From: Arenicola marina
Lineage: Eukaryota; Annelida; Polychaeta; Arenicolidae
NCBI GenBank assembly: GCA_964019135.1
Contig: OZ025265.1
Coordinates: forward strand, 27,379,143 to 27,443,142
Direction of reading: 5' to 3'
Length of the DNA: 64,000 nucleotides
The notes beneath the pieces are model-generated. The model was given only the letters and a program-made list of their open reading frames with translations, was not told the DNA's origin and did not search any database. A program made the translations under genes and the position numbers. Shown piece after piece: positions 1 to 62,997 of this stretch; the first letter of the stretch is position 1, and each line of letters begins with the position of its first letter.

Positions 1-2019
1 CAGACCTGAGAGCAGCCACACCTCCCTGTCCACGTTGACTGTACAGACCTGAGTGCACCCATCCCGCCTAGTCCACGTTGACCGTACAGACCTGAGTGCA
101 GCCACCCCTCCCTGTCAACGGTGGCTGTGCAGACCTGAGTGCAGCCACCCCGCCCTGTCCACGTTGGCTGTACAGACCTAAGTGCAGCCACCCCTCCCTG
201 TCCACGTTGACTGTACAGACCTGAGTGCAACCCCCATCCCTGTCCACGGTGGCTGTACAGACCTGAGTGCAGCCACCCTTCCCTGTCCACGATGTCTGTA
301 CAAACCTGAGTGCAGCCACCCCTCCCTGTCCACGATTGCTGTACAAACCTGAGTGCAGCAACCCCTCCCTGTCCACGATGGCTGTACAGACCTGAGTGCA
401 TCCACCCCGCCCTGTCCACGGCGGCTGTACAGACCTGAGTGCAGCCACCCTTCCCTGTCGACGGTGGATTACAGACCTGTGTGCAGCCACCCTTCACTGT
501 CAACGGTGGCTATACAGACCTGAGTGCAGCCACCCATCCCTGTCCACGGTGGTTGTACAGACCTGAGTGCAGCCACCCCTGCTTGTCCACGTTGGCTGTA
601 CAGACCTGAGTGCAGCCACCTCTCCCTGACGGTGGCTGCACAGACCTGAGTGCAGCCACCCCTCCCTGTCCACGGTAGTTGTACAGACCTGTGTGCAGCC
701 ACCCCTCCCTGTCAACGGTGGCTGTACAGACCTGAGTGCAGCCACCCTTCCCTGTCCACGGTGGTTGTACAGACCTGAGTGCAGCCACCCCTGCTTGTCC
801 ACGTTGGCTGTACAGACCTGAGTGCAGCCACCTCTCCCTGACGGTGGCTGCACAGACCTGAGTGCCGCCACCCCTCCCTGTCCACGGTAGTTGTACAGAC
901 CTGTGTGCAGCCACCCCTCCCTGTCAACGGTGGCTGTACAGACCTGAGTGCAGCCACCCTTCCCTGTCCACGGTGGTTGTACAGACCTGAGTGCAGCCAC
1001 CCCTCCCTGTCAACGGTGGCTGTACAGACCTGAGTGCAGCCACCCATCCCTGTCAACGGTGGCTGTACAAACCTGAGTGCACCCATGCCGCCCAGTCCAC
1101 GTTGGCTGTACAGACCTGAGTGCACCCATCCTGCCCAGTCCACGTTGGCTGTACAGACCTGAGTGCACCCATCCCGCCCAATCCACGTTGGCTGTACAGA
1201 CCTGAGTGCACCCATCCCGCCCAGTCCACGTTGGCCGTACAGACCTGAGTGCAGCCACCCCTCCCTGTCAACGGTGGCTGTACAGACCTGAGTGCAGCCA
1301 CCCCTCCCTGTCAACGGTGGCTGTACAGACCTGAGTGCAGCCACCCATCCTTGTCCCCGGTGGCTGTACAGACGTGAGTGCAGCCACCCCTCCCTGTCAA
1401 CGGTGGCTGTACAGACCTGAGTGCAGCCACCCCTCCCTGTCAACGGTGGCTGTACAGACCTGAGTGCAGCCACCCCTCCCTGTCAACGGTGGCTGTACAG
1501 ACCTGAGTGCAGCCACCGTTCCCTGTCCACGTTGGCTGTACAGACCTGAGTGCAGCCACCCCTCCCTGTCAACGGTGGCTGTACAGACCTGAGTGCAGTC
1601 ACCCATCCCTGTCCGTGGTGCCTGCACAGGCCTGAGTGCACCCATCCCGCCCTGTCCACGGTGGTTGTACAAACCTGAGTGCAGCCACCCCTGCCTCTCC
1701 GTGGTGCCTGCACAGACCTGAGTGCAGCCACCCCTCCCGGTCCACGATGGCTGTACAGACCTGTGTTCAGCCACCCCTCCCTGTCAACCGTGGCTGTACA
1801 GACCTGACTGCAGCCACCCATCCCTGTCCACGGTGGTTGTACAGACCTGAGTGCAGCCCCCCCTGCCTGTCCACGGTGGCTGTATAGACCTGAGTGCAGC
1901 CACCCCTCCCTGTCAACGGTGGCTGCACAGACCTGAGTGCAGCCACCCCTCCCTGTCCACGGTGGTTGTACAGACCTGAGTGCAGCCACCCATCCCTGTC
2001 CACGGTGGCTGTACAGATC
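1..2019 (-). repeat. 43-bp minisatellite array derived from ligase exon 8 splice junction
   Basis: About 47 head-to-tail units of 43 bp fill the window from its left edge, so the array is cut by the window. Read on the minus strand, a typical unit is GTCTGTACAG, then a variant of CCACCGTGGACAGGGAGGGG, then TGGCTGCACTCAG. The second and third pieces are the last coding bases of exon 8 of the neighbouring ligase genes (Val-Asp-Arg-Glu-Gly-Trp-Leu-His-Ser); the first is the start of the intron. Because 43 is not a multiple of 3, a sense read cycles through all three frames, and all are mostly open. This explains the many long overlapping reading frames, which I do not regard as proteins. Units vary by point changes; one subtype (about 1075-1240) has CACCCATCCCGCCCAG in place of the usual block. 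The array abuts a dead exon 8. Confidence 0.93.
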
Positions 2020-2339
2020 TGAGTGCAGCCACCCCTCCCTGTCCACGGTGCTCGCTGTGGCCTCTGGTCGCTTGTAGTAGCTTTCATGATCTAAGGACCT
2101 CGGATTCAGAGCTGTCCATTCTGGTTAGGACCAAGATTCCGGCCGATATCCGGATCTACTATCTGGAGAAAGAAGATGATAGATTCTGAATTTCCGCCAC
2201 TCTTTCCCGTCAAGATAAGTCCACGTCATTCGTGATTTGACTGGAATTTGTTTTTAACTATCAGTCCCGAAGACTCATATTTTCCTTGTGGAGCAGGGAC
2301 TTGCTAAGACGGTAGCACTAGTTTCAGTCAACCCATACC
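2019..2339 (-). pseudogene. Relic of acyl-CoA ligase exons 7 and 8 (copy P0)
   Basis: Exon 8 homology runs from 2162 down to 2019 and has a plausible acceptor (a pyrimidine tract ending in CCAG) on its upstream side. It is 144 nt instead of 145. A 1-base deletion near the Gly-Tyr-Tyr-Lys codons shifts the frame, and a TAG replaces the Gln/His codon after Arg-Gly-Pro. Exon 7 homology lies at about 2239-2339 and keeps GYGLTET, but an inserted base leads to an early stop. The GYGLTET motif makes it closer to gene A than to B and D, although it lies on the minus strand. Its donor side is the 43-bp array. Exons 1-6 are not recognisable further right, and exons 9-11 would lie outside the window. 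Confidence 0.85.
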
Positions 2340-6680: not shown

Positions 6681-9600
6681 GCTTCCCACAATACCCGCTG
6701 GATTTATGTGCCTAATAATCTCGTATGATTGTATCAACCCTTTACAGCAAACGTCACTGATAACTTCCATATTTATATGGTTCGCTTGCCAAAAACTTAT
6801 TCTGATGTGTCTGTTGAACACAGATCGATGGCCTAACAGGACGACGGATGACCTTCCGTGACCTTCACCGTGACGTCATGCAGGTTGCACACAATCTCCG
6901 CCAGAGGGGGCTACGGAAGGGCGACTTCGTCTTCATCTGTACACACAACTGTCTCGAGTTTCCTGTGGCTCTGTTGGCCGTAATACACCTGGGAGGCATC
7001 ATGTCGACATGCAACCCGGCTTACACCGTCGGTAAACTATAACGTGGAGAGACTGAGGAATACAGAATGGATGAGCTGAGTCATGATTTCCGTATCCCGA
7101 TTCAGTGGCGGATCCAGGGTGTGGGTGGGGGGGAGGAGGGGGGGGGGGGCTTTCAGGGACAAGCTCAGCATGGTTAAAATCGGATTTTGAGGATAAATGG
7201 ATCTGTTTATGTGAAATGTACTCACACAAATTCCTCTATCCGCCATTGCGATTTGTATTCATTGCCAATTAATTTGAGACAAACTCATTGGTCTGACAAT
7301 CTAAACTGCATGACAGAGGGAATCATAACGCACAAATCACCTTCTCTTTTGTACAAACTTTATTATAACATATACATTTGTGTAACATTTCAACAACCTA
7401 CCCTACATTCTCGACAGCATTTACCACTTTTCTCTGCTTTTTCAATTGAATGACATGTTGGTATATTACAAAAAATACAAGAACAGATTTTGGCTAACAC
7501 TTCTTTGACATACCCTACAATGATGCCGTTGTCGACAGGATTTGTCATGGTAACCAATTTTGTAGTATTCCCCGGCCACAAACCCGTTGGTTTGTTGACC
7601 AGGGAACGCCTTTTACTTCTCGTTATAACCCAGGTTCGGGGCGATCAGTTTGGGGAAATTGAGCAACACCGACAAGGATGACGATGTCAACAAGTGAATT
7701 TAATCAGGTCTTATCTAAATAATATTTACAGCAAAACGGTGTCTAATCTAAACTAACCAACGTGTAATTGAAGACCCACAGGTTGGGTACTTACAGTTAA
7801 TCGGGGCTGAGGCTTAACCGAACCGCAATAGCCGGTTACTTTGCGTTTCAGTGACTCAAACTAAAAACTGATCCGCCTCCCGATCCGCGTCCCGCGCACT
7901 CGCGGCTTCCTGCGGAGTGGCGTCACTCGTTAGAGGTCGTGCGGCGTGCTACTAAAATTGGGAATAACTACATGTACCTGTATGTACTACAATACGAACT
8001 AAGGACCTACTTTATGAAAACCCCAAATATTACGCATTTACCACTTTTCTACGCTTTTTGACACTGATAATATAAGATAGAGGTTTCAAATTTGTTTAAC
8101 ATTGCACAACTCTACAGTGCTCGACAGCATTTGCAGCCACTGAAGAAATGTTATTTTTATCCACAACACAGATGAAGTTCTGTCTCAGATGTCGGATTGT
8201 AAACCAAAGTTTGCCTTCGCGGCCAGCGAGGATGTGGGCGCCAAAGTGACGGCAGCCAGCAATAGGTGCGGTGGTGTGGAGGTAAGAACCATGACCGTTT
8301 CATTCAGGCCTATGTTGGAAGAGATTCGGCTTAATACACTGTATAAGATTAATTATCCGATCGTCATAACCTTTACATCTTCTGAATTATTCTTCAATAA
8401 TGAAACGTGATGTTTGAATTTGGCCCTTGCTTAGTTCTACAGCCGCCCCCCCCCCCCCACCCAACCATCCCTCTTAAATTTCTAAATCAAGGTTGGAACC
8501 ACACAATGCTTAATTTTAGATTAAAACTTACGCCAACATAAAACTAGATAAAAAAATGGGATGTTGGTCATTTTAAAGGATATTGGTTGTGTTTTAACTC
8601 ATGTTGTCTTACATGTATGAGTTGTTATGGCTATGCACACAATATGCACCTTTCAGGAGGTCTTTGTTTTCGGAGACGCCGCGGGCTGCACTCCCTTCAG
8701 AAAGCTATGCGCGCGCGGCAAATGTGATGACGTCACAGAGGTCAGCCCCGCACTCATTGACCCCGGAGAGGACCTGGCTGTGTTACCGTATTCTTCGGGA
8801 ACTACCGGGAAAGCCAAAGGAGTTATGTTGACTCACACCAATCTAATCGCCAACATCTTTCAGCTCAGGTGAAAATTCTGAACTAATTATTTACTCCGAC
8901 GACTCTTGGCACACATCCATGTCTGCATCTACTGTGTGCGCATTGTGTCAGCAACTTTTTGCATGAGTTAGATTCATTTTTCATGACTTCCTCTGAGAAA
9001 TAAAACCATAGTAGTAACGTCACTATATTTCGGTTGCTGTGGATAAATTGTCACGAATTCACATCAAACAGGAGATCTTCACTCACAATGATTTCTGTAC
9101 TGTTGAACCCGGAATTTTTAAATATTAGTCGTAGATTATTAGAACTGCCTAAACGATTCACAATGAATATACATTGATGTCAGTTTCGTTGATGAGTCAT
9201 CCGTGTGACATTTGCGACGTTTAACCCAATTCAGTGTCTCAGTCAATGCTAGCACGATAAGACAACACATTACCACATTACACAACTGCAGATGCACTGT
9301 ATTCCGTATTATCCTTCCTCCTCGACCAGGGTAACAGACGTCTTTAAGACCCCGGTGTGTAGGCGTGGAGAACAGGGAGTCATCATGGGAGTCTTACCTT
9401 TCTTCCACATCTACGGCCTCGTCTGTATCGTCTTCAGCTCCCTCTATGTTGGAGATGCCGTGGTCGTCTTGCCTCGTTTCGAGCTTGGAACCTTTCTTAA
9501 AGCCATCCAAGATCACAAGGTATGAGAGCATGAAAAGAAATCTGTATTCCTGTCGTGTTGGTTGTGAAATATCCAAATATATCAACCTGATCATCGCAAC

Positions 9601-12600
9601 GCTGATTGGCTCAAATGCTCGACGCTGATTGGTTGACAATTTTCAAATCTTGACGTCGATCGAAACTTTAGAACATGCAAACAATTTACAATGCGTGGAA
9701 ACCGACTCTCAAATTGCATGAAAATGACCATCAATCCGGTCCACAGCATCGCTTTTATTATGAGTGACGTGTCCCACAGGTCACGTGGCTCTTCATCGTC
9801 CCTCCCATCGCCTTGATGTTGGCCAAGGACCCCCAGGTGGCGCTGTACGACATGAACAGCGTCGAGTCCTTAAACAGCGGCGCGGCTCCGCTGGGGGGCG
9901 ACACTATTCGCGATATCCGGGAACGTCTGGGACTGCGTGATGTCAGACAAGGTGAGAGATTAATGGCCATGTTGAGGCTCGAACAGTTCTTGGCAATATA
10001 TAGTTCATTGCGAGCCGGGCAAGATGATTATCTATATGCTAACCACTGGCTACATGGCTCCACTCTCCCTGCCTTCTCCCATTGACGCGATGTGCCCAAA
10101 GGTGGTTAAAGCGTCCACAATAAACAACCAACCAAACAATCAACCCAATTGACGACCTCACCGACAACATTCAATTTACCAGCGTGGAAGTTAATGTCAC
10201 TTACCCTGTACATATAAGTCGTTGCAGTTTCATTTTGTCCATGTTGTTGAAAATTTAATGGGGTGTTTTTGGCTTTAAGGATACGGATTGACGGAAACCA
10301 GTCCCGTAGCTCTGGCGAGTCCGTGCTGCACGGCGAAATATGGGTCTTCGGGACTGATAGTGCCAAACACCGAAATAAAGGTGACACATTCAGTAATGCC
10401 GCCAGAGTGTGTGAGAATTCCAGTTGAATGACGACAAATTTTGACTAGACATAGTAACAGAAATGCGAAATATAGCGAGTAAATGTTTACATATATTTAT
10501 GTGGCAGAGAATTTTACACCAGCGGAAAATTCCCTCTTCCAGATAGTGGATCCGGATAGCGGCCAAGATCTAGGTCCAAACCAGGATGGAGAGCTCTGGA
10601 TCCGAGGTCCTCATGTGATGAAAGGCTACTACAAGCGACCGGAGGCCACAGCGAGCACCGTGGACAGGGAGGGGTGGCTGCACTCAGGTCTGTACAGCCA
10701 CCGTGGACAGGGATGGTGGCTGCACTCCAGTCTGTACAGCCACCGTGGACAGGGAGGGGTGGCTGCACTCAGGGTTGTACAGCCACCGTAGACAGGGCGC
10801 GGTGGCTGCACTCAGGTCTGTACAGCCACCGTGGACAGGGTGGGGTGGCTGTACTGAGGACTGGGAGGGGTGGGGGTTGGGGTGAAGGTTGCTCAACTCA
10901 GTATATTCTAGATTTCTACGATCATTGTCTGCTAAATTCCTATTTGTATTCGCTATTTGTAACACAAGTAAATATACCACTTACGAGACCAATGCTGCCA
11001 CCTGCATCAATAGTAATGCCAGCATAATCGCACGCCACATGATGTATATTTTGCACACCGCCCTTATTTGTGTCCCTTCAGTGTGAAGTGTCTACATTGC
11101 AGGCGACGTCGGACATTATGACGACGACGGATATTTCTATGTTGTGGACCGACTGAAGGAACTCATTAAATACAAAGGTTTCCAGGCGAGTGACAGCGTC
11201 TATACGATAATAAGGCCAACGGATGCAGTTTTCACCAATATTTCAGGAAAGGAAGGGCTTTATCATGTGAAACAACAGATACAGGAGCGATATATGGGCT
11301 TTGCATAATTAGTCCATAAAGGCGTCAGACTTATTGTATGTCTTCATATCATTCATATTCCTACTATTCTTTCACCCATCGGCATGGGTTACTCTAGTTG
11401 CACATGGAATAATTTTCACTTCTATGGGTGCATTTCAAAGCTGACAAGTTTTTCTTACTAGAAAAATGGTGTCAAAGGAGACTATACACTTCGCGATTAT
11501 GCTCTATGGTTGGAACGAAAAACGCCGAATCATGCGTGGTGTACGCCTAATATATTTTATATGTGTATACCAAGCACTATAGCCCTCGAAGTCAACTTGG
11601 GCTCACTTGAATATATTTTATACGTGTATATCAAGCACTATAGCCCTCCAAGTCAACTTGGGCTCACTTTAGGAGCATCCAGAAAAATTAACTGGAGGAT
11701 CTTATACAGTACACCCAGTAAGCCGGGACGCAATTTTTTTTTTAAACAATCGATGTCGTTCAACATGTCCAATATGAACAAAACAATGGCGTGGTCCAGA
11801 CACATTATAAAGGATCACGAGTTGCTTGGTCAAGAGCCGTAACAAATGCCAGGGTACTAAGCAATTGACAATGGTTTGGCTCGAATTTCTTGCATCTATA
11901 TGTCCATACCGTCGTCCAGCACCCTGAACCCCGAGTGAAGCATTCACCGGTTCGTCGAATAGTGACAAGCCGTGATTCTGACAGGTGCCCCCGGCTGAGA
12001 GGTAGACTTTTATTTAGGGTACGACTATTATAGAGAATGCAAAGCCATAACTTCAATTGGAAACGAAACTCAAACAGAACAACTTACTTGCGAAGCATCC
12101 ACAAATGATCTGGAGGGTCTCGGGGTTTGGAAGAGGATGCTTCGCACTGCTGTACCTAATGACAAGTTGTTACTGTAACAGGTGCCCCCGGCTGAGGTGG
12201 AGAGCCTACTGCTGACCCACCCAGGGGTGAGGGACGTGGCGGTGATCGGGGTGCCTGACGAGATGGCGGGGGAGCTCCCTCGGGCCTTCGTCGTCCTCAA
12301 GGACGGACAGAAAGTATCGGGGAGGGAAATAGCGGAATTCGTGGCAGGTGCCTTTACTAGGTGTCCCTCTGTTATACATTATACATTTCTGAATGGTTTC
12401 GAAGAAGGTTCCAAAACCATATATTGCGATCGTCATTTGTGTGAAAAACATTAAACAATGCTATGATAACAATCATTATCTAAGAGAGAAAGAATGAAAT
12501 TTGTTGCTGGTTAATATCATCTGATAGAGTAAGTATATGTTCAAAGAATGCGTTGATTTAACAATACATAGCGATGGGGACGGGGTGGGTGGCCTTCAAA

Positions 12601-12879
12601 AGAACAAGTCATTACCGCGTGATCTATATCCGTAGCGGATGAAATGATACGCATATCGGCGCAAATATTGGCACTAAAAATCTTCCTAATGATTATCTGG
12701 TTTCCTAATATTTATGCGGATTTGCAACTTTTTCTTTTGTCCCAGCCAACGCGGCGCCCCACAAACGCCTGCGCGGCGGAGTAGAACTCGTCACGGAAAT
12801 ACCGAAAAGCGCAAGCGGAAAGATCCTGCGACGTGTGCTGAGACAAAGGGTTAAAGACTCCCTGATCGCCAAGCTGTGA
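6194..12879 (+). CDS. Gene A: 4-coumarate:CoA ligase-like acyl-CoA synthetase, 11 exons, intact
   Basis: Coding exons are 6194-6292, 6824-7031, 8172-8281, 8657-8868, 9330-9519, 9780-9951, 10280-10380, 10543-10687, 11103-11185, 12182-12347 and 12746-12879. The sum is 1620 nt, i.e. 539 residues plus stop, the usual size of 4CL-like enzymes, and all splice phases agree. ANL-family motifs in order: P-loop [16 protein letters not shown] (184-199), FFHIYG (234-239), LNSGAAPLG (304-312), GYGLTE (331-336), GELWIRGP (380-387), GWLHSGD (408-414), [14 protein letters not shown] (427-440), and the catalytic-lysine region [11 protein letters not shown] (Lys521). Such enzymes join a carboxylic acid to CoA through an acyl-AMP. 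The substrate cannot be told from sequence. The C-terminus AKL fits a PTS1, so a peroxisomal location is likely. The ATG is chosen because it opens an MKSP N-terminus conserved in copies B, D and E. Odd points: a GC donor after exon 9, and a 43-bp minisatellite at the exon 8 donor. Confidence 0.9.
6600..6690 (-). mobile_element. tRNA-derived SINE-like fragment in intron 1
   Basis: On the minus strand the stretch carries an A-box-like TTAGCAGGTGGA and a B-box-like GGGTTCGCGCCC spaced as in a tRNA gene, followed by AATAAATACGCG. It does not fold into a clean tRNA by eye. A diverged copy lies at about 55740-55805 with TAGCTCGGTGA and GGTTCGCGCCC. I read both as tRNA-derived SINE heads rather than working tRNAs. 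Confidence 0.5.
7103..7160. mobile_element. G-rich element end (CAGTGGCGGATCCAGG) in intron 2
   Basis: CAGTGGCGGATCCAGG is followed by a G run of about 35 bases, then sequence shared with pseudogene E (from about 55848). It belongs to the same family of ends as the elements near 2363, 4662 and 60420. Confidence 0.4.
10010..10140 (+). mobile_element. SINE-like dispersed repeat in intron 6 of gene A
   Basis: The stretch with CATGGCTCCACTCTCCCTGC and GTGGTTAAAGCGTCC ends in AATAAACAACCAACC. Related sequence appears at 45335-45420 (GGCTCCTCTCTGCC, GGGTTAAAGCGTCC, AAACAAACC) and in the matching intron of copy C (about 25990-26140). The A-rich tail suggests a retroposon. Confidence 0.45.
10688..10860 (+). 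repeat. 43-bp minisatellite at the exon 8 donor of gene A (about 4 units)
   Basis: Immediately after the exon 8 end, CACTCAG|GTCTGTACAG, come about four further units of the same 43-bp repeat in the gene's own sense. Unit 2 reads CACTCCAGTCTG and has lost the GT. Unit 3 reads CACTCAGGGTTG. Unit 4 is CACTCAGGTCTG (donor-like GT at 10816). Several competing copies of the 5' splice site therefore lie in intron 8. Confidence 0.9.
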
Positions 12880-14803: not shown

Positions 14804-17800
14804 TCACGGCTTGGCGATCAGGGAGTCTTTAACCCTGTGTCTAAGCACACGTCGCAGGATCTTTCCGCTTGCGCTTTTCGGTATTTCCGTGACGAGTTCC
14901 ACCCCGCCGCGTAGGCGTTTGTGGGGCGCCGCGTTGGCTGGTGGATAAAGAAAAGGAAATTACAGTTAATACGTGCAAAACAGCTTATGAAACGAGGTGA
15001 CGATTTGTCTGATTTACTTTAGCGTATAAGGTAATTTATTATGACAAACCCACCCCAACTTTTTCTGCCAACCCGTTGCCTGCGATTCACGCGATCGAAT
15101 AATGCAGAAACCATAATGTTTATTAAGACATTTATTCTCTATCGATGGTCATACTTACTTACCAGGTGATATATTTATCACGAATACCGCTTTTTTCTCC
15201 TGTGATAGAAATTTGCTATCACAATGCTGTATAATGCCTATTTAACGACGTGTAATGATCATGAGTGTAACAGTGTGATTTGGTAACCTTATTGTAATCA
15301 GTGAAACATAAGCGATACATAGCTTGAGAATGCAAGCTGTGACCATGTTTTCTGTTTGTTGTGTACACACACCTACAGAACGCACCTGCCACGAATTCCG
15401 CTATTTCTCTCTCCGATACTTTCTGTCCGTCCTTGAGGACGACGAAGGCCCGAGGGAGCTCCCCCGCCATCTCGTCATGCACTCCAATCACCGCCACGTC
15501 CCTCACCCCCGGATGGGTCAGCAGTAGGCTCTCAACCTCAGCCGGGGGCACCTGTCAAAGTCACACCTTGTCACTAGGTAAATATATTAGCAGCATCCTC
15601 TTCAAAATCCGATGACCAGTTTATTTGTGGATGCTTCGAGTTTTTCTGGTTGTGTTTTGCTTGCAATCCAAATTATTACCTTTCCTTTTTTGGAATAATT
15701 TTGCCCTGAATACAAGTTATCTATAAATGTAATAGACATGATGCATATTGCGACCTTTCTGGAAACTGCTTCCCCAAAGCCCCATTTCAATAGGGACGTT
15801 ATCACTTACCTGGAAGCCTTTGTACTTAATCAGTTCCTTCAGTCTGTCCACGACATAGAAATATCCGTCGTCGTCATAATGTCCGATGTCGCCTGCAATG
15901 TAGACACTTCACATTGAAGGAACACCAATAAGGGCGGTTTACATAATATTCAGCGTGTAATGTGTCATTAACCTAGCGTTGCTATGGGTTGAACTAGCAG
16001 CATTGATCTTTACTCACAGGCAAGAAATAGAAAGGGTGCAAACGAGATTTTGCAAATATGTACTCGGAGTGTCGTCGAAAACGTCTAATGTAGCAACGAT
16101 CGGCGAATGTGGTCGGCTGTCCATGAACGTTTATTATATGATAAAATGTATCAAGCACTGGCTACGAATTGTGTTAGATTATGATAGATCGAGATATCCG
16201 AAGAGTTGCTACAATATGTTGTCCAATTTAGACCAGGCAGGCAGAACCACATGGGTAACGCATGTGAAGAATTTATTATTTTGCAATGGATTTGGTGTGG
16301 TGTGGCTTAGCCAAAGTGTGGGAGATACGAACAGTTTTATATCTGAATTGAAAGCCAGACTGTCTGATATTGCAAAGCAAATTTGGATAGAAGAGTCTCA
16401 AGCTTTAACAAAGTTAGATACTTATTGTGAAATTAAATCATTATTAGAACCAGAAATGTATTTACATAAAATTAACCACAGGCGACACAGGATAGCCCTT
16501 GCCAGGCTGCGTTGTAGTAATCATAGACTTGCTGTCGAGAGAGAGAGGGATCAGAAGGAACGAAGCCAAAGATTTTGTTTATACTGTAAGAGTAAGGGAA
16601 TCGATATATTGGAAGATGAATACCACTTTGTGATGATATGCGGGTTATATGAAGAACTCCGCATAAAATATTTACCTAGCTTTAGCTTTCCAAACAAAGT
16701 AAAATTTATTACACTTATGCGCTCCAAGAATACTGTATTCCTGAATAACCTAGGTGCATTCTGCTACCATGCAACAAAATTACACTGTTTAAAATCTTAA
16801 GTAGCGTGCAACTTATTATGTAAATGTTTGTATATGTTCCATGGGCTCGTGGCCTGAAAGTGCAATAAAGACACACAATACATTGATCTCGTACGTGGTA
16901 TTTACCCTTTAAAATGTATAACGAATTTAGCCGATAATGATCTTAGAAACCCTCATTGTTGTACATACTGAACAGTCACCCCTCACTGTCCACGGTGGGG
17001 GTACAGGCCTAAGTGCTGTCACCCCTCACTGTCCACGGTGGGGGTACAAAACTGAGTGCAGTCACCCCTCCCTGTCCACGTTGGCTGTACAGACCTGAGT
17101 GCAGCCACCCCTCCCTGTCCACGGTGGCTGTACAGACCTGAGTGCAGCCACCCCTCCCTGTCCATGGTGGCTGTACAGACCTAAGTGCACGGTGGGGATA
17201 CAAACCTGAGTGCAGCCACCCCTAACTGTCCACGGTGGGGATGCAGACCTGAGTGCACGGTGGGGATACAAACCTGAGTGCAGCCACCCCTAACTGTCCA
17301 CGGTGGGGATGCAGACCTGAGTGCAGCCACCCCTCCCTGTCCACAGTGGCTGTACAGACTTGAGTGTAGCCACCCCTCCCTGTCCACGATGGTCGATGTG
17401 GCGTCCGGTCGCTTGTAGTAGCCTTTCATCACCTGAGGACCTCGGATCCAGAGCTCTCCATCCTGGTTTGGACCCAGATCCCGACCGCTATCTGGGTCTA
17501 CTATCTGGATAACGGATTATTTTCTGATACAAAACTCCCTGTCACATATATTTGATGATTTTAATCAATTCATTCTTCATTTCTGTTAATAAAATACCTC
17601 AACATCATTCGTGATTTCAATTTTCTCATTCCAGCGAAATGATTAAATGTGTCACCTTTATTTCGGTGTTTGGAACTATTAATCCCGAAGAGCCGTATTT
17701 CGCTGTGTAACAGGGACTACACAGGGCGGCGGGACTAGTCTCCGTCATTCCGTAATCTGAAAACAACATTTGCAACATTTTTTGAGATCAGCCTGGAATG

Positions 17801-20800: not shown

Positions 20801-22095
20801 TAAAGGAGTAATTCAGCTATGTTTACGCATGCCTTACAACAGTAATTTATTTGAACATTAAACTGAGTAATCACAGCCAATCATAATCGAGCATCATGGA
20901 AGGACACTTCGTCACGCGCTTCGACCTTGTCCTCTCTATTTGTCAGCATTATACAAAAAAATATGGCTGGCAGAGGCACAGCCTTCCTGTTTCGACATTT
21001 GCCGATACAAGCAGATACATATGTATCTTATCGGCCAACGTTCTACAATCATGGTTAAACCGGATCGATGACTTTAACCGTTGTTAAAAGATGCCTCCAT
21101 AAACATAAACAGGCTGAACTGCGGATTAACAGGTCATGGGTTTGCACTTTGAATATAAACAATTTCAATGTAACCAGGGAATAGTGTATCACCAGGAATG
21201 GTGTATTCTCCACGGAATGCAGACCGGCTCTATAGTAAAACACACTCTGCCAGCAGATTTGAAAAAATATGGCCATTCCGTTATCGTACGCTCACAATAG
21301 CAGGGTTAAACGGAAAAATAGTTCAAAATAACACGGGGGTCAAAGTTCAAAGCGTTTCACCTCGAGCGAACATGAAAACATGCTTCTAATTCATCAAAGT
21401 CTAATCAATTTGTACGATACCGTACCAAAAGCATTACAAATACTAAATAGTGGTGTATTTGATGCCAAAATGCTAATATACATGTATCTTTGATTCGATT
21501 CGATTACATTCGTTTAAATTTGTGCGTATGAAAAATAATTCTTGTAGTTAAATTTGACTTGGGCAGAGGGACTATAACTTGAGCGGAACGCCATCTGCCG
21601 GGAGATCGATCCCCACCTGGACACGTTCGATTTTGTTGCAGGTTGCTGAATCGAGTAGATGCACACTACTAATCCCCCAGAGGGCCTTTTTCGACACAGT
21701 GACACGACCATTTTTTAAATCGACCGCGCGACATGGACCTCTTCTTAGCATCGACATGCGACATGGACCTCTTCTTAACATCGACATGCGACATGGACCT
21801 CTTCTTAACATCGACATGCGACATGGACCTCTTCTTAGCGTCGACATGCAATATGGACCTCTTGTTAGCATCGACATACGACATGGACCTCTTAAAATTG
21901 ACATGCAACATGGCTATTCCCCCACTGGGGCTCTTCTACTTTGCCGTGTAGCCAGGTTGACTGATACGCTCGGGTACCGTTTGTATTTCAACTGACCAGT
22001 GCCACTCGGTTTCCGTACTCCCTCAGTTTGGGCAGTAACACCTGAGTGACCGACAGGCTGGTGGGGGAGGCGACATCAGGCAGAAGGCTCTTCAT
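14804..22095 (-). CDS. Gene B: 4-coumarate:CoA ligase-like acyl-CoA synthetase, 11 exons, open but altered
   Basis: Minus-strand exons in coding order: 22095-21997, 20715-20508, 19666-19557, 19335-19124, 18598-18409, 18263-18092, 17756-17656, 17504-17360, 15892-15810, 15551-15386 and 14937-14804. Lengths equal those of gene A exon by exon, giving 539 residues with no stop. The P-loop [35 protein letters not shown] and [11 protein letters not shown] are kept. Differences from gene A: DYGMTE instead of GYGLTE; the last base of exon 8 is A, so the Gly before the ATP-ribose-binding Asp becomes Ser (HSSD) if spliced normally; and the C-terminus is AKP, losing the PTS1-like AKL. The exon 9 donor is GTAAGT. 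The start matches MKSLLPDV in copy D. Intron 8 carries a LINE insertion and the 43-bp array; intron 1 carries a 30-bp array. It may be a working paralogue with another location, or an early pseudogene. Confidence 0.8.
16010..16880 (+). mobile_element. 5'-truncated LINE insertion with 9-bp target duplication
   Basis: The insert lies in intron 8 of gene B, opposite to it, flanked by CATTGATCT at 16001-16009 and 16881-16889. The matching place in copy D (31771-31779) has one CATTGATCT and no insert. An open frame runs to the TAA at 16798-16800. It codes for about 263 residues of the C-terminal end of a non-LTR retrotransposon ORF2, with the [20 protein letters not shown] block and a Cys/His-type CLYCKSK...CGLYEEL motif typical of that tail. 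The 3' end is AATAAAGACACACAATA. No reverse transcriptase core is present because of 5' truncation. The intact frame and exact empty site mark a young insertion. Confidence 0.9.
16973..17359 (-). repeat. 43-bp minisatellite at the exon 8 donor of gene B (about 9 units)
   Basis: The array directly follows the exon 8 end at 17360 in gene sense. Several units are altered: a GGGGATGCAGACC or GGGGATACAAACC variant at about 17190-17330, partly shortened, and GGGGGTACAGGCC at the far end. The first donor reads CTCAA|GTCTGT rather than CTCAG|GTCTGT. Confidence 0.9.
21733..21912. repeat. 30-bp minisatellite in gene B intron 1 (6 units)
   Basis: Units start with ATGGACCTCTTCTTA at 21733, 21763, 21793, 21823, 21853 and 21883 and continue with a GCATCGACATGCGAC-like half. 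Since 30 is divisible by 3, each strand reads open, giving spurious frames ([10 protein letters not shown] on +, [10 protein letters not shown] on -). The array lies about 85 bp past the exon 1 donor of gene B. Copy D has 14 units at the same place. Confidence 0.9.
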
Positions 22096-24289: not shown

Positions 24290-24600
24290 GTCCAAGATTT
24301 CGTGTATACGTGAGTCCTGTAGCGAGTCACGAGGGTAAATACGTAAGTCTTGTAGCGAGTTACGAGGGTGAATACTGTGGTCCTGTAGCGAGAGTCACGA
24401 GGGTGAATACGTGAGTCCTGTAGCGAGTCACGATAGTGAATACGTGAGTCCTGTAGCAAGTCACGAGGGTTAATACGTGAGTCCTGAAGCGAGTCACGAG
24501 GGTGAATACGTGACTGCTGTAGCGAGTCACGAGGTTCAATACGTAAGTCTTGTAGCGAGTTACGAGGGTGAATACTGTGGTCCTGTAGCTTGTACTGTAC
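24290..24600. repeat. 33-bp minisatellite upstream of gene B
   Basis: About nine units of TGAATACGTGAGTCCTGTAG followed by CGAGTCACGAGGG, with variants TACTGTGGTCC and TAAGTCTTG. The related array upstream of copy D (39965-40520) is about twice as long and includes a TGAGCAGTGAGGG variant. Confidence 0.88.
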
Positions 24601-26140: not shown

Positions 26141-26684
26141 AATTGATGACCTCACCGACAACATTCAATTTACCAGCGTGGAAGTTAATGTCACTTACCC
26201 TGTATACATATAAGTCGTTGCAGTTTCATTTTGCCCTTGTTGTTGAAAAAGTATTGGCGTTTTTTTTTGCTTTAAGGATACGGATTGACGGAAACCAGTC
26301 CCGTCGCTCTGGCGAGTCCGTGCTGCACGGCGAAATATGGGTCTTCGGGACTGATAGTGCCAAACACCGAAATAAAGGTGACACATTCAGTAATGCCGCC
26401 AGAGTGTGTGAGAATTCCAGTTGAGTGACGACAAATGTTGACTAGACATAGTAACAGAAATGCGAAATATAGCGAGTAAATGTTTCCATATATTTATGTG
26501 GCAGAGAATTTTACACCAGCGGCAAAATCCCTCTTCCAGATAGTGGATCCGGATAGCGGCCAGGATCTAGGTCCAAACCAGGATGGAGAGCTCTGGATCC
26601 GAGGTCCTCATGTGATGAAAGGCTACTACAAGCGACCGGAGGCCACAGCGAGCACCGTGGACAGGGAGGGGTGGCTGCACTCAG

Positions 26685-26775
26685 GTCTGTACAGCCACCG
26701 TAGACAGGGAGCGGTGGCTGCACTCAGGTCTGTACAGCCACCGTGGACAGGGAGGGGTGGCTGTACTCAGGACTG
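26685..26775 (+). repeat. 43-bp minisatellite at the exon 8 donor of copy C (about 2 units)
   Basis: Two further units follow the exon 8 end (CACTCAG|GTCTGT at 26684/26685), against about four in gene A, although the flanks are nearly identical. Copy number has changed since the duplication. Confidence 0.88.
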
Positions 26776-28809
26776 GGAGGGGTGGGGGTTGGGGTGAAGG
26801 TTGCTCAACTCAGTATATTCTAGATTTCTACGATCATTGTCTGCTAAATTCCTATTTGTATTCGCTATTTGTAACACAAGTAAATATACCACTTACGAGA
26901 CCAATGCTGCCACTTGCATCAATAGTAATGCCAGCATAATCGCACGCCACATGATGTATATTTTGCACACCGCCCTTATTTGTGTCCCTTCAGTGTGAAG
27001 TGTCTACATTGCAGGCGACGTCGGACATTATGACGACGACGGATATTTCTATGTTGTGGACCGACTGAAGGAACTCATTAAATACAAAGGTTTCCAGGCG
27101 AGTGACAGCGTCTATACGATAATAAGGCCAACGGATGCAGTTTTCACCAATATTTCAGGAAAGGAAGGGCTTTATCATGTGAAACAACAGATACCGGAGC
27201 GATATATGGGCTTGGCATAATTAGTCCATAAAGGCGTCAGACTTATTGTATGTCATCATATCATTCATATTCCTACTATTATTTCACCCATCGGCATGGG
27301 TTACTCTAGTTGCACATGGAATAATTTTCACTTCTATGGGTGCATTTCAAAGCTGACAAGTTTTTCTTACTAGAAAAATGGTGTCAAAGGAGACTATACA
27401 CTTCGCGATTATGCTCTTTGGTTGGAACGAAAAACGCCGAATCATGCGTGGTGTACGCCTAATATATTTTATATGTGTATACCCAGCACTATAGCCCTCC
27501 AAGTCAACTTGGGCTCACTTGAATATATTTTATACGTGTATATCAAGCACTATAGCCCTCCAAGTCAACTTGGGCTCACTTTAGGAGCATCCAGAAAAAT
27601 TAACTGGAGGATCTTATACAGTACACCCAGTAAGCCGGGACGCAAATTTTTTTTTTAAACAATCGATGTCGTTCAACATGTCCAATATGAACAAAACAAT
27701 GGCGTGGTCCAGACACATTATAAAGGATCACGAGTTGCTTGGTCAAGAGCCGTAACAAATGCCAGGGTACTAAGCAATTGACAATGGTTTGGCTCGAATT
27801 TCTTGCATCTATATGTCCATACCGTCGTCCAGCACCCTGAACCCCGAGTGAAGCATTCACCGGTTCGTCGAATAGTGACAAGCCGTGATTCTGACAGGTG
27901 CCCCCGGCTGAGAGGTAGACTTTTATTTAGGGTACGACTATTATAGAAAATGCAAAGCCATAACTTCAATTGGAAACGAAACTCAAACAGAACAACTTAC
28001 TTGCGAAGCATCCACAAATGATCTGGAGGGTCTCGGGGTTTGGAAGAGGATGCTTCGCACTGCTGTACCTAATGACAAGTTGTTACTGTAACAGGTGCCC
28101 CCGGCTGAGGTGGAGAGCCTACTGCTGACCCACCCAGGGGTGAGGGACGTGGCGGTGATCGGGGTGCCTGACGAGATGGCGGGGGAGCTCCCTCGGGCCT
28201 TCGTCGTCCTCAAGGACGGACAGAAAGTATCGGAGAGGGAAATAGCGGAATTCGTGGCAGGTGCGTTTACTAGGTGTCCCTCTGTTATACATTATACATT
28301 TCTGAATTGTTTCGAAGAAGGTTCCAAAACCATATATTGCGATCGTCATTTGTGTGAAAAACATTAAACAATGCTATGATAACAATCATTATCTAAGAGA
28401 GAAAGAATGAAATTTGTTGCTGGTTAATATCATCTGATAGAGTAAGTATATGTTCAAAGAATGCGTTGATTTAACAATACATAGCGATGGGGACGGGGTG
28501 GGTGGCCTTCAAAAGAACAAGTCATTACCGCGTGATCTATATCCGTAGCGGATGAAATGATACGCATATCGGCGCAAATATTGGCACTAAAAATCTTCCT
28601 AATGATTATCTGGTTTCCTAATATTTATGCGGATTTGCAACTTTTTCTTTTGTCCCAGCCAACGCGGCGCCCCACAAACGCCTGCGCGGCGGAGTAGAAC
28701 TCGTCACGGAAATACCGAAAAGCGCAAGCGGAAAGATCCTGCGACGTGTGCTGAGACAAAGGGTTAAAGACTCCCTGATCGCCAAGCTGTGAGGACCGTC
28801 GATCAGAAT

Positions 28810-31862: not shown

Positions 31863-32198
31863 CAGTCACCCCTCACTGTCCACGGTGGGGGTACAGGCCT
31901 AAGTGCAGTCACCCCCCCACTGTCCACGGTGGCTGTACATACCTGAGTGCAGCCACCCCTCCCTGCTCACGTTGGCTGTACAGACCTGGGTGCAGCCACC
32001 CTCCCTGTCCACGGTGGCTGTACAGACCTGAGCGTAGCCACCCCTCCCTGTCCATGGTGGCTGTACAGACGTGAGTGCAGCCCCAATCCCTGTCCACGGT
32101 GGCTGTACAGACATGAGTGCAGCCACCCCTCCCTGTCCACGGTGGCTGTACAGACCTGAGTGTAGCCACCTCTCCCTGTCCATGGTGGCTGTACAGAC
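31863..32198 (-). repeat. 43-bp minisatellite at the exon 8 donor of copy D (about 8 units)
   Basis: The array follows exon 8 (CATTCAG|GTCTGT at 32199/32198 in gene sense). Units differ in number and order from those of gene B, though sequence on both sides matches B closely. Confidence 0.9.
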
Positions 32199-35100
32199 CT
32201 GAATGCAGCCACCCCTCCCTGTCCACGATGGTCGATGTGGCGTCCGGTCGCTTGTAGTAGCCTTTCATCACCTGAGGACCTCGGATCCAGAGCTCTCCAT
32301 CCTGGTTTGGACCCAGATCCCGACCGCTATCTGGGTTCACTATCTGGATAACGGATTATTTTCTGATACAAAACTCCCTGTCACATACATTTGATGATTT
32401 TAATCAATTCATTCTTCATTCTGTTAATAAAATACCTCAACATCATTCGTGATTTCAATTTTCTCATTCTTGCGAAATGATTAAATGTGTCACCTTTATT
32501 TCGGTGTTTGGAACTATTAATCCCGAAGAGCCGTATTTCGCTGTGTAACAGGGACTACACAGGGCGGCGGGACTAGTCTCCGTCATTCCGTAATCTGAAA
32601 ACAACATTTGCAACATTTTTTGAGATCAGCCTGGAATGGAGGATAATCCCCAAAAGTCTTGACGTGCTTGCCTAGTTTCCTTCGTCTTTTCCAAAGCTGA
32701 AGCAGCGATTGGCTGGATATCAGGTGGGAATGAGACGATCTTGGACATCTTGCCCCAAATCCAGTTCATTCTAGTGTGATTTTCATGTAGATATCATGTA
32801 ATCATGTATTTAGGGATTACGCGATCTTTGATAATAAAGGTGGGGCCTGAGGTCTACTGCACAACTTAATTGGATCATGGTCAGATATAGAGGGCAAAGA
32901 ACCGTCATCACGGGCCATTTATCGCTCACCTTGTCTGACGTCACGCAGTCCCAGACGTTCCCGGATGTTGCGAATAGTGTCGCCCCCTAGCGGGGCCGCG
33001 CCGCTGTTTAAGGTCTCGACGCTGCTTAAGTCGTACAGCGCCACCTGGGGGTCCTTGGCCAACATCAGGGCGATGGGCGGGACGATGAAGAGCCACGTGA
33101 CCTGTATGTTGTATCTTGGAATTAACGATATTAGTCCAATAAGATTTCATTTCTCCTCAATGTGCGTCGATACATGTACTAATACGTTGGCAGATATTTT
33201 GTGGCGTGGCATTTAATAAATGCATTCCATTCTATGTTCCGCTACCTTGTGATCTTGGATGGCTTTCAGAAAGGTCCTAAGCTCAAAACGAGGCAGAAGA
33301 AGGACGGCATCTCCAATATAGAGGGCGCTAAGTGTGATGGTGACCAGGCCGTAGATGTGGAAGAGCGGTAACACTCCCATGACGACTCCCTGAGCTCCGC
33401 GCCTGCGCACCGGGGTCTTCAAGACATCTGTCTCCCTGATGAGGTGATTGGGAGGCAAGAACGATAAAATGTCCGAAACAATTGTGCCTCTACAATAGGC
33501 GATTCGCATTTCACACTCTCCACTAAATACCTTTGCTACAGTGCACATGCCACGTGACAAAATAGCAGACCGACGCATCGATGAAACTACCATCCATGCA
33601 TATTCAATGTGGATTATATCTAATCTTCTACGATGTATATTGGTAGTCTATTAGACTGTATCATTAAAGGTCGTTATACTCAGTGTGACGCGATGTGCAA
33701 TGTCTCTATCGTAGTAACCACTTGAGATAAATATATCTGATTTTGTAACAATCTCATTGCATCACACGGGTTCACAATGTGCACAGTTTCATGGGAATGT
33801 GAGCAAAAGTGGCGAATTCGAAATTCAAAAGATTCAAAATAAAAATTAAGATGAAAATTCAAAACGCCGGAATGGATATATAATTATAGAATGGTCACCT
33901 GAGCTGAAAGATGCAGTCGACCAGATTGGTGTGAGTCAACATAATCCCTTTGGCTTTTCCGGTAGTTCCCGAAGAATACGGTAACACAGCCAGATCCTCT
34001 CCGGGGTCAATGGGTGCGGGGCTGACCTCTGTGACGTCATTACCATTGCTGCGCGCGCATAACTTCCTGAAGGGCGTGCAACCCGCGGCGTCTCCAAAAA
34101 CAAAGACCTCCTGAAAAAAGGGGATTAGAGTTACCACCAAATCAAAAGCTTTCTGCTCTTGCTAACAGCCCATTTCCATTTAATACCAGGGTTATTCCCG
34201 GAATTAATGCAAATTATGGGTGGTGGAATGAGAACAGGATTATGAATATTATGTACCTGATGCTGTACCGACCGCTTAAATCCGACTATATCATTCCCTT
34301 TCAGCATGGGCATATATCCTACTGTTCGTACCTCCACCCCACCACACATCTGGCTGGCTGCCGTCACCTTGGTAACCACATTATCGGCTGCCGTGAAGGC
34401 AAACTTGGGTTTACAATCCGACATCTGAGAGAGAATCTCATCTGTGCTTCGGAAAGAACGAAAATTACATGATGATAATAATTCTTAAGTCAGGTGCATG
34501 TCAAGGCATGTGTTAATTTGTTTATCTGTAGTTTACCTATGTCCTGCAAATTAATCATTAGGCCCAGTTGGCAACTAAATAGTCTATGTGCCTCCCGTTA
34601 AATTTAACAATCAGAATTATCCTTCATACGCGAACATTGAAAATGTATCTTATCGAATTTGAATACTTTTAGCATTTACTGTGTCACAATATTTCCGTAC
34701 CGGCATCGGAACTATTGAACTATCGGACACCGAAAATGGAATCTGCAACTTAAACAAGCCTCTAAAACCGTTCGTGATCCCAGACCCCGTTGAGCTCTGT
34801 CAACCGTAAGGTTATGGGGGGCAGTTATGTGAGGCCGAAGTTATGTAAGGAACGAGCTCTCTCTGCTGGCAGTGTCTAAATTTCGCTAAATTTTTAGGCG
34901 CCTTTTGTGCAGTGGCGACCCAGTTGCAGGCGGAGGATGTGAAGTGACAGAGGTTGGTGCCGCAAACACATAATTTTGTGGTCCCAGACTCGGAACCTTT
35001 ATGTTATTGCAGGGTGAGCTGTTAAATCTGTATATTAATCACATGGCCTCACTCGCTGCCACGTGACAGGGAGCGCATTTCTCTTTAGTAATGACGTGGG

Positions 35101-36257: not shown

Positions 36258-36690
36258 AGCGACGCGCGACATGGACCTCTTCTTAGCATCGACATGCGAC
36301 ATGGACCTCTTCATAACATCGACATGCGACATGGACCTCTTCTTAGCATCGACATGCGATATGGACCTCTTCTTAGCATCGACATACGATATAGACCTCT
36401 TCTTAACATCGACATGCGACATGGACCTCTTCTTAACATCGACATGCGACATGGACCTCTTCGTAGCATCGACATACGATATGGACCTCTTCTTAACATC
36501 GACATGCGATATGGACCTCTTCTTAGCATCGACATGCGATATGGACCTCTTCTTAACATCGACATGCGATATGGACCTCTTCTTAGCATCGACATACGAC
36601 ATGGACCTCTTCTTAGCATCGGCATGCGATATGGACCTCTTCTTAGCATCGACATGCGACATGGACTTCTTAAAATTGACATGCAACATG
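36258..36690. repeat. 30-bp minisatellite in copy D intron 1 (14 units)
   Basis: Units of ATGGACCTCTTCTTA plus a GCATCGACATGCGAC-like half begin every 30 bases from 36271 to 36661. They read open in four or more frames and give spurious proteins of about 150 residues. Confidence 0.92.
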
Positions 36691-39964: not shown

Positions 39965-40520
39965 CGTACTGAGTGTCCAAGATTTCGTGAATACGTGAGT
40001 CCTGTAGCGAGTCACGAGGGTGAATACGTGAGTCTTGTAGCGAGTCACGAGGGTGAATACTGTGGTCCTGTAGCTTGTACTGTAGTATGAGCAGTGAGGG
40101 TAAATACGTGAGTCTCGTAGCGAGTCACGAAGGTGAAGACGTGAGTCCTGTAGCGAAAGTCACGGGGGTGAATTCGTGAGTCCTGTAGCGAGTCACGAGA
40201 GTGAATACGTGAGTCCTGTAGCGAGAGTCAGGAGGGTGAATACATGAGTCATGTAGCGAGTCCCGAGGGTGAATACGTGAGTCCTGTAGCGAGTCACGAG
40301 GGTGAATACGTAAGTCTTGTAGCGAGTTACGAGGGTGAATACTGTGGTCCTGTAGCTTGTACTGTAGTATGAGCAGTGAGGGTAAATACGTGAGTCCCGT
40401 AGCGAGTCCTGTAGTATGAGCAGTGAGGGTAAATACGTGAGTCCCGTAGCGAGTCACGAAGGTGAAGACGTGAGTCCTGTAGCGAGTCACGACGGTGAAT
40501 ACGCGAGCCCTGTAGCGACG
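39965..40520. repeat. 33-bp minisatellite upstream of copy D (about 17 units)
   Basis: Same family as 24290-24600, longer and with a higher-order block TAGCTTGTACTGTAGTATGA appearing twice (near 40071 and 40352) and a third partial time. It forms the right edge of the tandem duplication. Confidence 0.85.
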
Positions 40521-40599: not shown

Positions 40600-43500
40600 G
40601 CATTGGGTGTAAATAAGTTTATTAAATCTTTGGTCTAGGCACCGGCGCTACGTGGGCCAGCTAGCGCTGACCACTCATCACGCCGGCCCTAGAGCCACGT
40701 GTGTAGACACAGTAACGGGAATATATACACTATTTAAGGTAAATGGCCGGGGCCATGTCGGCATCTGGTGGCACCGGCCCGCGTACAATACGTGTTGGTT
40801 ATCTTGGGTATATGCGTAACTTTACGTGAAATGAACAGCAATACCTCATATTGCAAACGCTAGGGTTACCTAGCGGTCTATAAAAACCGGTCTTCACAAG
40901 GAGTATCCGGGAGTAACTAACGCTACTAAAGCTAGGGGCACCTTGCTAGCTATGTACATGAGACGCCACACGGGATCGAGCAGCGTCGACCAGCTAGCGC
41001 TGACATTCGTGGCTCCGGTGCGTACTTCAGGGGGAAAAGATGTGATGACGTATAAACAATGTTGAGAATGATATGACGAGGAGTCCGTATGGTGTCCTCT
41101 TGCAAAGAAGCGACGAAAGGTCAGAGTCCATCGGACTCTGGCTGGGCTGACACCCAAAGGAGGAACAGGGAAAACAGAACGTAGGATGTCAGATGCGGGA
41201 AAGGAGGCTCCGATCACCGATCACCCAAGACGGAAGTTCAGCGGCAATAGCTTTGCGAGTAGTGGCGTGGGGTATGGCTTCAAACCGTGCCTCTGTATAC
41301 AGTTGAGGGCTGGCCCGCCCACGTGAGATTGCGTTGGCCATGATGGTGTGGCCAGGCATATGAACAGCCTTGAACTTGGTATTATTTGTGAGGCAGGCGA
41401 GTATGAAAGAGCGTAGGATAGCCATGATGTGAATGTCCTTAGAGGTTTGTTTGTTGATAATCGGTGTTACTGCCATGTTGTCACAGAAAAAAGTGATGTG
41501 AGAGTTTGCCATTTTTTGCCTAAATATACGGGAAAGCAAGAAGATGGGGTAAAGTTCGAGTATTGCGATGTTGAGCTGGCTCCACGACGGCGGCCAGCTC
41601 CTTTCTATCCAGAAGGATCCAAATGTGCCACCATAGCCTTTAGTGGAAGCGTCGGAATACAGGTTAAGCCGATCGGAATGGGCTTGTGATGGTGTTGAAA
41701 TGACCGTAATCCCGTTATAATCCCGAAAGAACTGTAGCAACATGTGGAGATCTTGTTTTGACTCCCTGGTGAGTCAAATGCAGTGTGTCGGTTTGGTGAT
41801 GCCTTTTGTGAGGTCAATGAGGCGTCTGATGAAGGGTCTCCCGGGGCGGACTACCGAAGTTGCCAAGTGTAGCGAACCTATGAGAGATTGCAGGTCTGAG
41901 AGTGGGATTTTTGTGCGGAACAAGTGTTTATGGTTGAGTGATTCATATTTGCATAGCTTGTCTCGAGGAAATCTACCCATAAGGTGAGCCGTGTCTAGCT
42001 CGATGCCTGGGAAAGTGAGCATTTGTGAAGGGCCAACAGTCTTTTCCGGGGATAGTGGTACTCCAATGCGGCTTAAGAACTGGCAGAAAGTGTCAAGCTG
42101 TGCCTGACAACCTTGTGGCGTAGAGTGAAGGAAGAAGAAATCGTTTGTCTCCAAGAGACCCCACAAGGTGGCAGCACTTCCCTAACCGAGAACCCCAGTT
42201 GGGGTCTCCTAGAATTAGGCTGGCTGGTTCCACGCCAAATGTTATAAATGTCACTACGGGAGCAATGTAAGTATTTTTTCTTTACAGGCAGGTATAATAT
42301 AGGCATTGTCAGATAGTGTGATGAATAGGCACGGCGAATTTAAACATAAAATTCAAATTAAACTGCCGCCGCTTCCTCCGCGCTTTTCCGAACTACTACA
42401 GTTGGGTTTACGGCGTGATAATCACCGGAAATAGTTCTTACAGGCGGCCCCAAATTATTCTGTTTAAGAACACATTCCATAAAATGAAGTTCAACATTTA
42501 TTATTCAAACGCGTATGTTTTTGTTTTAGACAATCGAGTCGCTTGCTAATTTAGCCGGTCGCTTGCGTCGGTCGATCATGTTGATCGTCTCCAATTCTAC
42601 AAGCCCCAATATCAGAAACTCTAAGCTGGTAAAAGTATGCAAGCGAAGTTGCGGCCGCGGAACCAGGCTACAGACAGCTACGCCGTGTGTGTGACGTAGA
42701 AGTTCTTAGAATGCCTTTGATCAGTTTGGGGCTGAGCAAGCCAGAGAAATCGTCTGGTATCTTTGTGGAGTGATGGATAGCGAAATAGTTATGTAGGACT
42801 CATTGCATGGCATCTGTGAACTTGTCGAAGAGAGAACAGGCCGCGGCACATCCCATTGGCAGACATTTGTCATCATAGTAGTGGCCTTGCCAGCTAAATC
42901 CCATGAGTTGGTACTGGGGGCCTCGTTCGCAAGCGACCGCTAGTCGACTAATGGTTGACGATTTGGCTGCCGAACGGTGACTAGTCCGACCATCTAGTCG
43001 ACCGGAGCGAACCATGCCGCCACCCACGGTTCCTCTGGTCGATTGTCGTCCAAGATGGCGGAGGGAAATGAGCAGTAAGCGGTGTTCGCGTTATCTTTGT
43101 GGCGTATTCTTGCTCTGTAACTTCGTTTGCCAATTTATATACATTTAAACAAATTAAAATATAGCATGGTTCATACGTAATGGCTTATTTTGCCAATTTA
43201 TTATGTTTTCGTGCTAAATGTGCACGTGATCGAACTGACTGTAGGCTTACGCTCGTTTACCCTTATCTCTACTGTGCAGATTTTGTTTTTTGGGGAGGGG
43301 GGTGGGGGGGTCTTTAGTACTCCTCCGGTCACCAAGCCGATACAGTGAGGCTCTATGTCAAAAAACACAGGGTAAAATGTTCTCTGTAATACAATTCAGT
43401 GACGATCCAGGATTTTGCACAAGAGGGTCAGGACACACGCGGCGGTTAAAGGTGCTTGTTCTTGTTGTTATTTCCGCCATGAGACCGATTGTCAGCCCTT

Positions 43501-52640: not shown

Positions 52641-53220
52641 CTAGTACACACATGACTGCCACCCTCGCTGCGTGATCCAGACAACAGACAGTGAAGGGTT
52701 TCCGATCATTTATAGCAGCATACAAAGTCTTGGCCCGGGTGATCCCCGGATGCGCTTCCCTCCTTGCAGAGCTGGATGATGCCGCTGTAGGTCGTCAATC
52801 CCAGGAAGGATTGGAGTGGTCTGACAGCATCTGGCTGAGATGCCGATCCACGTGTGATTGTTGACAAACACTCGCTCTGGCTCTGCGCGCGAGCGAGCAG
52901 TTCATAACTTCCGAGCTGCGAGAGGCGGGCGATTCGAAATTTGTTGTGTGAACAAAGGTTGTCATGTCATGGAACATCGAGTCTCTTGATAGATATCAAC
53001 GGTGCTACCCAGTAACATAACATCTATGGAATTAAAAAAAAACAGATTTTGCGGTGAGTGTTGCTTTGTTTTTGTTTTTTTGCTTTGTTTTACAGAGATG
53101 CGGTTAGACGGCAACCCAAGGCGTCCAGGGGTAAAATACTTGGTTGTCTCTGTGGCTGTAGACGGGCCCTGTCAGATTTTTGCCCGTCCTACAGCCATAG
53201 AACTGGGGCTATACCCTAAG
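52641..53220. other. Stretch without recognised gene
   Basis: One open stretch at 53002-53265 (+) has an acceptor-like TTTTACAG at 53087-53094 followed by about 55 codons (MRLDGNPRRPGVKYLVVSVA). I do not recognise it, and it has no partner exons. Confidence 0.25.
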
Positions 53221-62404: not shown

Positions 62405-62405
62405 C

Positions 62406-62995: not shown

Positions 62996-62997
62996 AT

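Follow-up and report, generated by a model that had tools for sequence, protein, structure and literature searches.

Minisatellite-like tandem duplications of exon-intron boundaries have been described in amphioxus, where they are termed mirages (Ebner et al., 2010; PMC3087553). Known examples include the Adh3 mirage (Canestro et al., 2002, cited in PMC3087553), the globin gene BflGb6, with 6 and 3 units in two haplotypes (PMC3087553), and PGBD5, the report on which also cites TnC (PMC3902484). PGBD5 carries 2 or 7 and 3 or 6 units in two assemblies, and the Adh3 unit measures 10-72 bp (PMC3087553, PMC3902484). In the available portions of both reports splicing is described as regular, the copy number varies between haplotypes, and many units contain AG/GT (PMC3087553, PMC3902484). 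The locus which is the focus of this report resembles the amphioxus mirages (Adh3, the globins BflGb6 and BflGb9, TnC and PGBD5), as the available text presents them, in its boundary-spanning unit, in the splice signals found in many units and in its variable unit number. The amphioxus cases, all of them from cephalochordates in that text, comprise few units, whereas here arrays of 24.8 and about 36.3 kb, an embedded exon 9 and a family of twelve copies are found. In the open-licence literature, judged mostly by titles or the opening lines of abstracts, we found no boundary minisatellite of tens of kilobases. The class of boundary minisatellites is already known, and what is new here is the growth to tens of kilobases with embedded exons.

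Another precedent is the human gene IFI6 (6-16/G1P3), in which a minisatellite with a 12 bp unit starts near the end of exon 2; it was reportedly described by Turri et al. in 1995. According to the accessible part of one source, two downstream repeat units are used as donors, with three mRNA species (PMC4526556), and a 1995 paper on the IFI6 minisatellite is cited elsewhere (PMC2572611). As in IFI6, the minisatellite described here lies at an exon end and carries several splice donors; unlike in IFI6, where the excerpt reports downstream donors in transcripts, the use of a downstream donor would be predicted to break copy A. Furthermore, human segmental duplications contain variable internal tandem repeats, some of them at exon-intron boundaries, and putative new introns (PMC2812944). 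They resemble the present case in that minisatellites have changed in recent paralogues, in some instances at exon-intron boundaries, but their units average 30 bp and are repeated about four times, and the available part of that report does not describe them as a satellite of a donor junction.

The analysed stretch of 64,000 nucleotides (C20:27379143-27443142, hereafter the window) belongs to a genome of 867 Mb. Its host gene is a 4-coumarate-CoA-ligase/luciferase-like enzyme, an acyl-CoA ligase assigned to the ANL superfamily by its predicted protein (gene A; PF00501, E 2.3e-88; PF13193, E 6e-21), and the closest solved relatives of gene A are AncLamp luciferase and 4-coumarate-CoA ligase 2. 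Among the 120 matches listed, most of them without an organism name, the homologues naming an animal are those of Patiria and Owenia (49-50% identity), and no lancelet is named. Gene A was modelled over exons 2-11 (6824-12879, forward strand); the joined exons encode 506 amino acids with AMP-binding and AMP-binding_C domains and no internal stop, and the copy looks intact over these exons. Splice sites and exon-intron boundaries of the ligase copies were predicted from frame, homology and splice consensus. On these grounds, exon 8 of gene A (10543-10687, forward strand) ends in ...GAG GGG TGG CTG CAC TCA G/GTCTGT, the slash marking the boundary and the donor thus reading CAG/GTCTGT, and joins exon 9 (11103-11185, forward strand) in phase 1. 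The donor directly after exon 9 is GC (CAG/GCGAGT) in A (11186-11191) and B (27098-27103) and GT in C and D.

The repeat unit, CACCGTGGACAGGGAGGGGTGGCTGCACTCAG/GTCTGTACAGC, is 43 bp long and consists of the last 32 bases of exon 8 and the first 11 bases of intron 8; its length is no multiple of three. Arrays of this unit were detected by TRF at the exon-8 donor of five ligase copies in the window (A, B, C, D and P0), always in gene sense. The 15-mer TGGCTGCACTCAGGT occurs 69 times in the window at up to two mismatches, against a mean of 0.09 in shuffled sequences. For A to D, TRF and unit alignment delimit array A at 10656-10863 (forward strand, 5 full units), array B at 26653-26775 (forward, 3 full units, AG/GT in 2/3), array C at 16973-17392 (reverse, 9 full units and two fragments, AG/GT in 5/9) and array D at 31863-32231 (reverse, 9 full units, AG/GT in 5/9, one internal donor being CAG/GTATGT). 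The visible end of array P0 occupies positions 1-2050 on the reverse strand, where unit alignment gives 48 units, 45 of them with AG/GT, before the window edge cuts the array. When units were aligned one by one, the majority sequence was the same 43-mer in all five window arrays, full units differing on average by 5.5-9% from this consensus. Divergence increases with distance from the exon in D (rho 0.69, p = 0.04) and monotonically in B, which has only 3 units, and shows no significant trend in A, C and P0.

TRF and the unit alignment agree with the original prediction of a 43-bp minisatellite made from the exon-8 donor junction and found in gene sense in five copies. The array had been said to start at the donor; it in fact begins 32 bases inside the exon, these last bases of exon 8 being the exon part of its first unit. 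Likewise, the statement that each unit adds a further 5' splice site holds for many units but not for all, as AG/GT is intact in only 2/5 of those in A. As found here, the unit spans a predicted exon-intron boundary, and many units, not all, carry putative splice signals. The 10 bases from GT to AG within the unit are too short to be an intron by themselves.

Several further properties of the unit were recorded. Units 26-30 and 31-35 of P0 in the window form a repeated five-unit block, a higher-order repeat, and in L017 TRF scores a three-unit period of 129 bp higher than 43. Searches of Rfam gave no match, and of 7997 candidates scored when the translated satellite was compared with a protein database none reached E <= 0.001. 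As a DNA hairpin, the unit is not unusually stable on either strand (z 0.39 and -1.34). Its reverse strand contains CCTCCCTGTCCAC, which we take to match the human PRDM9 hotspot 13-mer, and its gene strand a two-tetrad G4-like motif; both are probably coincidental.

The copies differ in their state of preservation. In copy C, blastn mapping matched 10/10 exons (exons 2-11), and the donor of its first unit reads CAA/GTCTGT; A, B and D retain an intact first-unit donor. By the same mapping, B and D are not intact copies. B is truncated at its 5' side, with exons 2-4 unmatched, the exon-5 donor lost and exon 6 matched only from base 27, and exon 2 of D is truncated to bases 4-78. P0 is a relic of which exons 7 and 8 are present in the window with stops, its exon 8 (2019-2162, reverse strand) containing stop codons and the donor AG/AT. 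Self-comparison of the window identifies A/B and C/D as segmental duplicates, the individual pieces of each pair agreeing at about 88-99%. At 53218-57583 there is an additional partial ligase copy, with part of exon 4 and exon 5 matched and exon 8 unmatched.

In addition, the window contains other repeats and open frames of mobile elements. Arrays of a 33-bp unit whose consensus contains GTGAGT lie beyond the 5' ends of C and D (24302-24589 and 39987-40518), and 30-bp arrays are located upstream of exon 2 of the same copies (21728-21893 and 36266-36671). In intron 8 of copy C, between the array and exon 9, there is a LINE-like open frame of 279 amino acids (15961-16800) with 8 relatives, the best at 48-52% identity. 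Retroelement-like frames at 41189-44166 (reverse strand) and 62403-63536 (forward strand), the latter containing an 18-bp tandem array read in frame, are presumably of DIRS-like and L1-ORF1-like type, respectively.

Twelve array-bearing copies are known, five in the window and seven outside it, all within one cluster of 0.2 Mb. Six further short arrays of 4 to 15 full units are found at exon-8 copies at C20:27.262-27.300 Mb, and full units number 3-5 on the A/B side vs 6-15 on the C/D side. The array of P0 runs from 27381192 to C20:27356416, a length of 24.8 kb of which about 22.7 kb lie past the window, both figures including 3.7 kb of unread sequence (27360300-27363999). P0' is a duplicate relic of P0, with exon 8 just above 27253967 and the array end at 27217638, about 36.3 kb apart. 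Its sequence was read over 6.6 kb around the lower end (5.3 kb of it array) and in eight sample stretches inside, all of which (8/8) contain array, while a sample at 27257000 is without it. At its end, each long array is separated by about 27 bases from the acceptor of a relic exon 9.

In the long arrays, units are separated in places by gaps of 318 bp, each containing the tail of the array together with exon 9 and the beginning of intron 9. Such exon-9 cassettes number two in L017, two internal ones and a terminal one in L068 and none in L013; in P0', one internal and a terminal cassette lie in the 6.6 kb read, and none in the eight samples. Neighbouring cassettes are 1995 (twice), 1307 and 2081 bp apart. 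Judged by these repeated cassettes, the satellite has begun to amplify a larger unit which includes the next exon.

Throughout the genome, a 33-mer across the unit junction (up to three mismatches) gave 16 forward and 1269 reverse matches, and the reversed-pattern control gave 0. All forward matches, and all reverse ones among the matches listed (about the first hundred), fall in the ligase cluster. Counts of the 33-mer amount to 61, 5, 202, 100 and 49 in the pieces of P0 and the window, 109 in the lower-end part of P0' that was read, 53 in the P0' samples and 16 in the remaining loci with short arrays. When these densities are extended to the sequence that was not read, roughly 1,130-1,260 reverse matches result, an estimate and no census; as this is close to 1269, little can remain elsewhere. 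The expectation that the repeat does not occur away from ligase exon 8 is thereby borne out, for the listed matches directly and for the rest by extrapolation.

The lengths of the two long arrays have to be read with the assembly in mind. Over 5252 bp, copy A shares 99.35% identity with its duplicate A', and P0/P0', like A/A', may therefore be two haplotypes of one locus placed in a row. If so, the array lengths would be allelic, and instability would still be evident. The length of the long arrays may also be misassembled. Taken as assembled, the difference between the related copies P0 and P0' (24.8 vs about 36.3 kb) points to length instability.

As to the origin of the satellite, the exon part of the unit encodes the motif GWLHSGD. 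The conservation that had been claimed for it is confirmed by the regular expression [GD]W.[HRK][ST]GD, which is found in 108/120 listed homologues and unmatched in 12, the Patiria protein among them; judged by these matches, the motif is conserved far beyond animals. In four distant paralogues (L009-L012, C20:22.46-22.56 Mb), which are near-identical to one another, homology extends up to GWVHTG and is followed by a GT in equal phase (GWVHTG/GTAGGT), and the array is absent from the exon-8 junction in 4/4. In L009, the one paralogue analysed by TRF, a different 43-bp tandem array, with 7.5 copies and no relation to the junction unit, precedes exon 7 (2130-2450 of that locus). With an ancient motif and array-free paralogues sharing the same junction, the junction would have come first and the satellite grown from it, which supports the original prediction of a putative birth in place at the exon-8 donor.

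Five copies agree in unit, register and majority sequence, and intron that can be aligned follows the arrays of A/B and of C/D; both observations point to one birth, with gene duplication as the likely explanation of the common array site. The shared site had correctly been recognized, but it would thus reflect inheritance by gene duplication and not five births. An array is present at each of the twelve exon-8 copies that were examined in the cluster, so that the initial duplication event itself is not seen. The A, C and P0 lineages differ from one another by 36-37% in intron 7 (for P0 over only 70-78 sites), and the array consensus is identical. Such uniformity of the array consensus exceeds the expectation under simple independent drift and may reflect exchange between loci or arrays, or re-seeding from unit 1.

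We therefore favor, with a probability of roughly 0.83, a minisatellite of the mirage type, born in place at the exon-8/intron-8 boundary, spread by gene duplication and run away in P0/P0'. In an ancestor of the CoA-ligase cluster, a short tandem duplication across this boundary would have arisen in place. Units beyond the first would lie inside the intron, and their number could vary freely if splicing relies on the first donor; under this condition the array would be neutral, growing and shrinking by unequal exchange or slippage with the protein unchanged. Gene duplication would then have carried the array to the twelve known copies, and in the relic lineage P0/P0' it would have run away to 25-36 kb and begun to copy exon 9 too. 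A broader version of this idea, which we consider unlikely, holds that the donor junction itself is a self-amplifying satellite, passing from few units in working copies to 25-36 kb in relics, picking up the next exon, forming a higher-order repeat and continually giving rise to new introns, micro-exons and duplicated exons.

Whether the extra donors could be functional was judged with a generic frequency matrix, applied to GT sites above the score threshold between exons 8 and 9 of A, B and D. Units with an intact donor score like the authentic donor (5.78), and copy D keeps three other CAG/GTCTGT sites, two of them in frame without a stop, as well as its stronger CAG/GTATGT, which gives a stop. 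Together with the IFI6 precedent, as far as the accessible text of PMC4526556 goes, these sites would fit an array that is a regulated set of alternative donors, several units being used to give isoforms. We regard this as quite improbable, since each of the 12 scored alternative GT sites of copy A leads to a stop and D is broken in exon 2. The frame stays open from 1/13 scored sites in A (the authentic donor only), 2/10 in B and 5/23 in D. Furthermore, in ten short arrays only 37/70 full units, first units included, have AG/GT, vs 199/218, 114/120, 64/70 and 44/47 (about 91-95%) in four stretches of the relic arrays; the difference could mean that decoy donors were lost from copies formerly under selection, but donor columns of the short arrays are not seen to change more often than the others.

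The donor columns of downstream units in the short arrays are neither specially kept nor lost (20/164 vs 160/1610 changed, p = 0.34; 60 units, 42 of them distinct, from ten arrays, with unit 1 and P0 excluded). In the long arrays, donor columns vary less than the others (51/848 vs 958/8283, p = 2e-7; 433 units, 213 distinct). We draw no claim of selection from either comparison, because the units share ancestry and inherited subfamily variants occur in some columns. An RNA structure hiding the extra donors was considered as well and rejected, as folding singles out no first donor. The comparison took in A, B and D, the first donors of C and P0 being unlike the CAG/GTCTGT motif. Mean unpaired probability is 0.27 at the first donor vs 0.48 at later CAG/GTCTGT sites in A, 0.24 vs 0.42 in B, and 0.18 vs 0.16, 0.34 and 0.05 in D; the first donor is thus not the most accessible site, although in D pairing is stronger at two of the later sites.

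Each unit might instead be a ready-made micro-exon (TACAG/.../GT) and the array a nursery of introns and exons, following the Rogers/Ebner model. The 33 nt between TACAG and the next GT would insert 11 residues in frame, but such a phase match has a one-in-three chance, and by eye no pyrimidine tract precedes TACAG. Intron gain from globin mirages was proposed by Ebner et al. (2010), in the part of PMC3087553 available here, and the long arrays contain several copies of exon 9, although these copies sit in a relic; we hold the micro-exon function to be very improbable. An arrival of the satellite from elsewhere by insertion at the exon-8 junction, already disfavoured, is extremely improbable. 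Long arrays do lie beside the genes, but in-frame translation of the unit gives the ancestral motif of the enzyme as far as the common donor, and all 16 forward and all listed reverse matches are in the cluster, the reverse total roughly fitting by extrapolation.

For annotators, the locus is a warning that such arrays can create false exons. With short, long and array-free states side by side in one locus, boundary minisatellites of a few units, which have mostly been reported as oddities of lancelet genes, become linked to true satellite arrays. This natural series allows one to ask how a splice site is multiplied many hundredfold, how the spliceosome picks among donors that are nearly identical, and whether introns and exons can be newly formed from such arrays.
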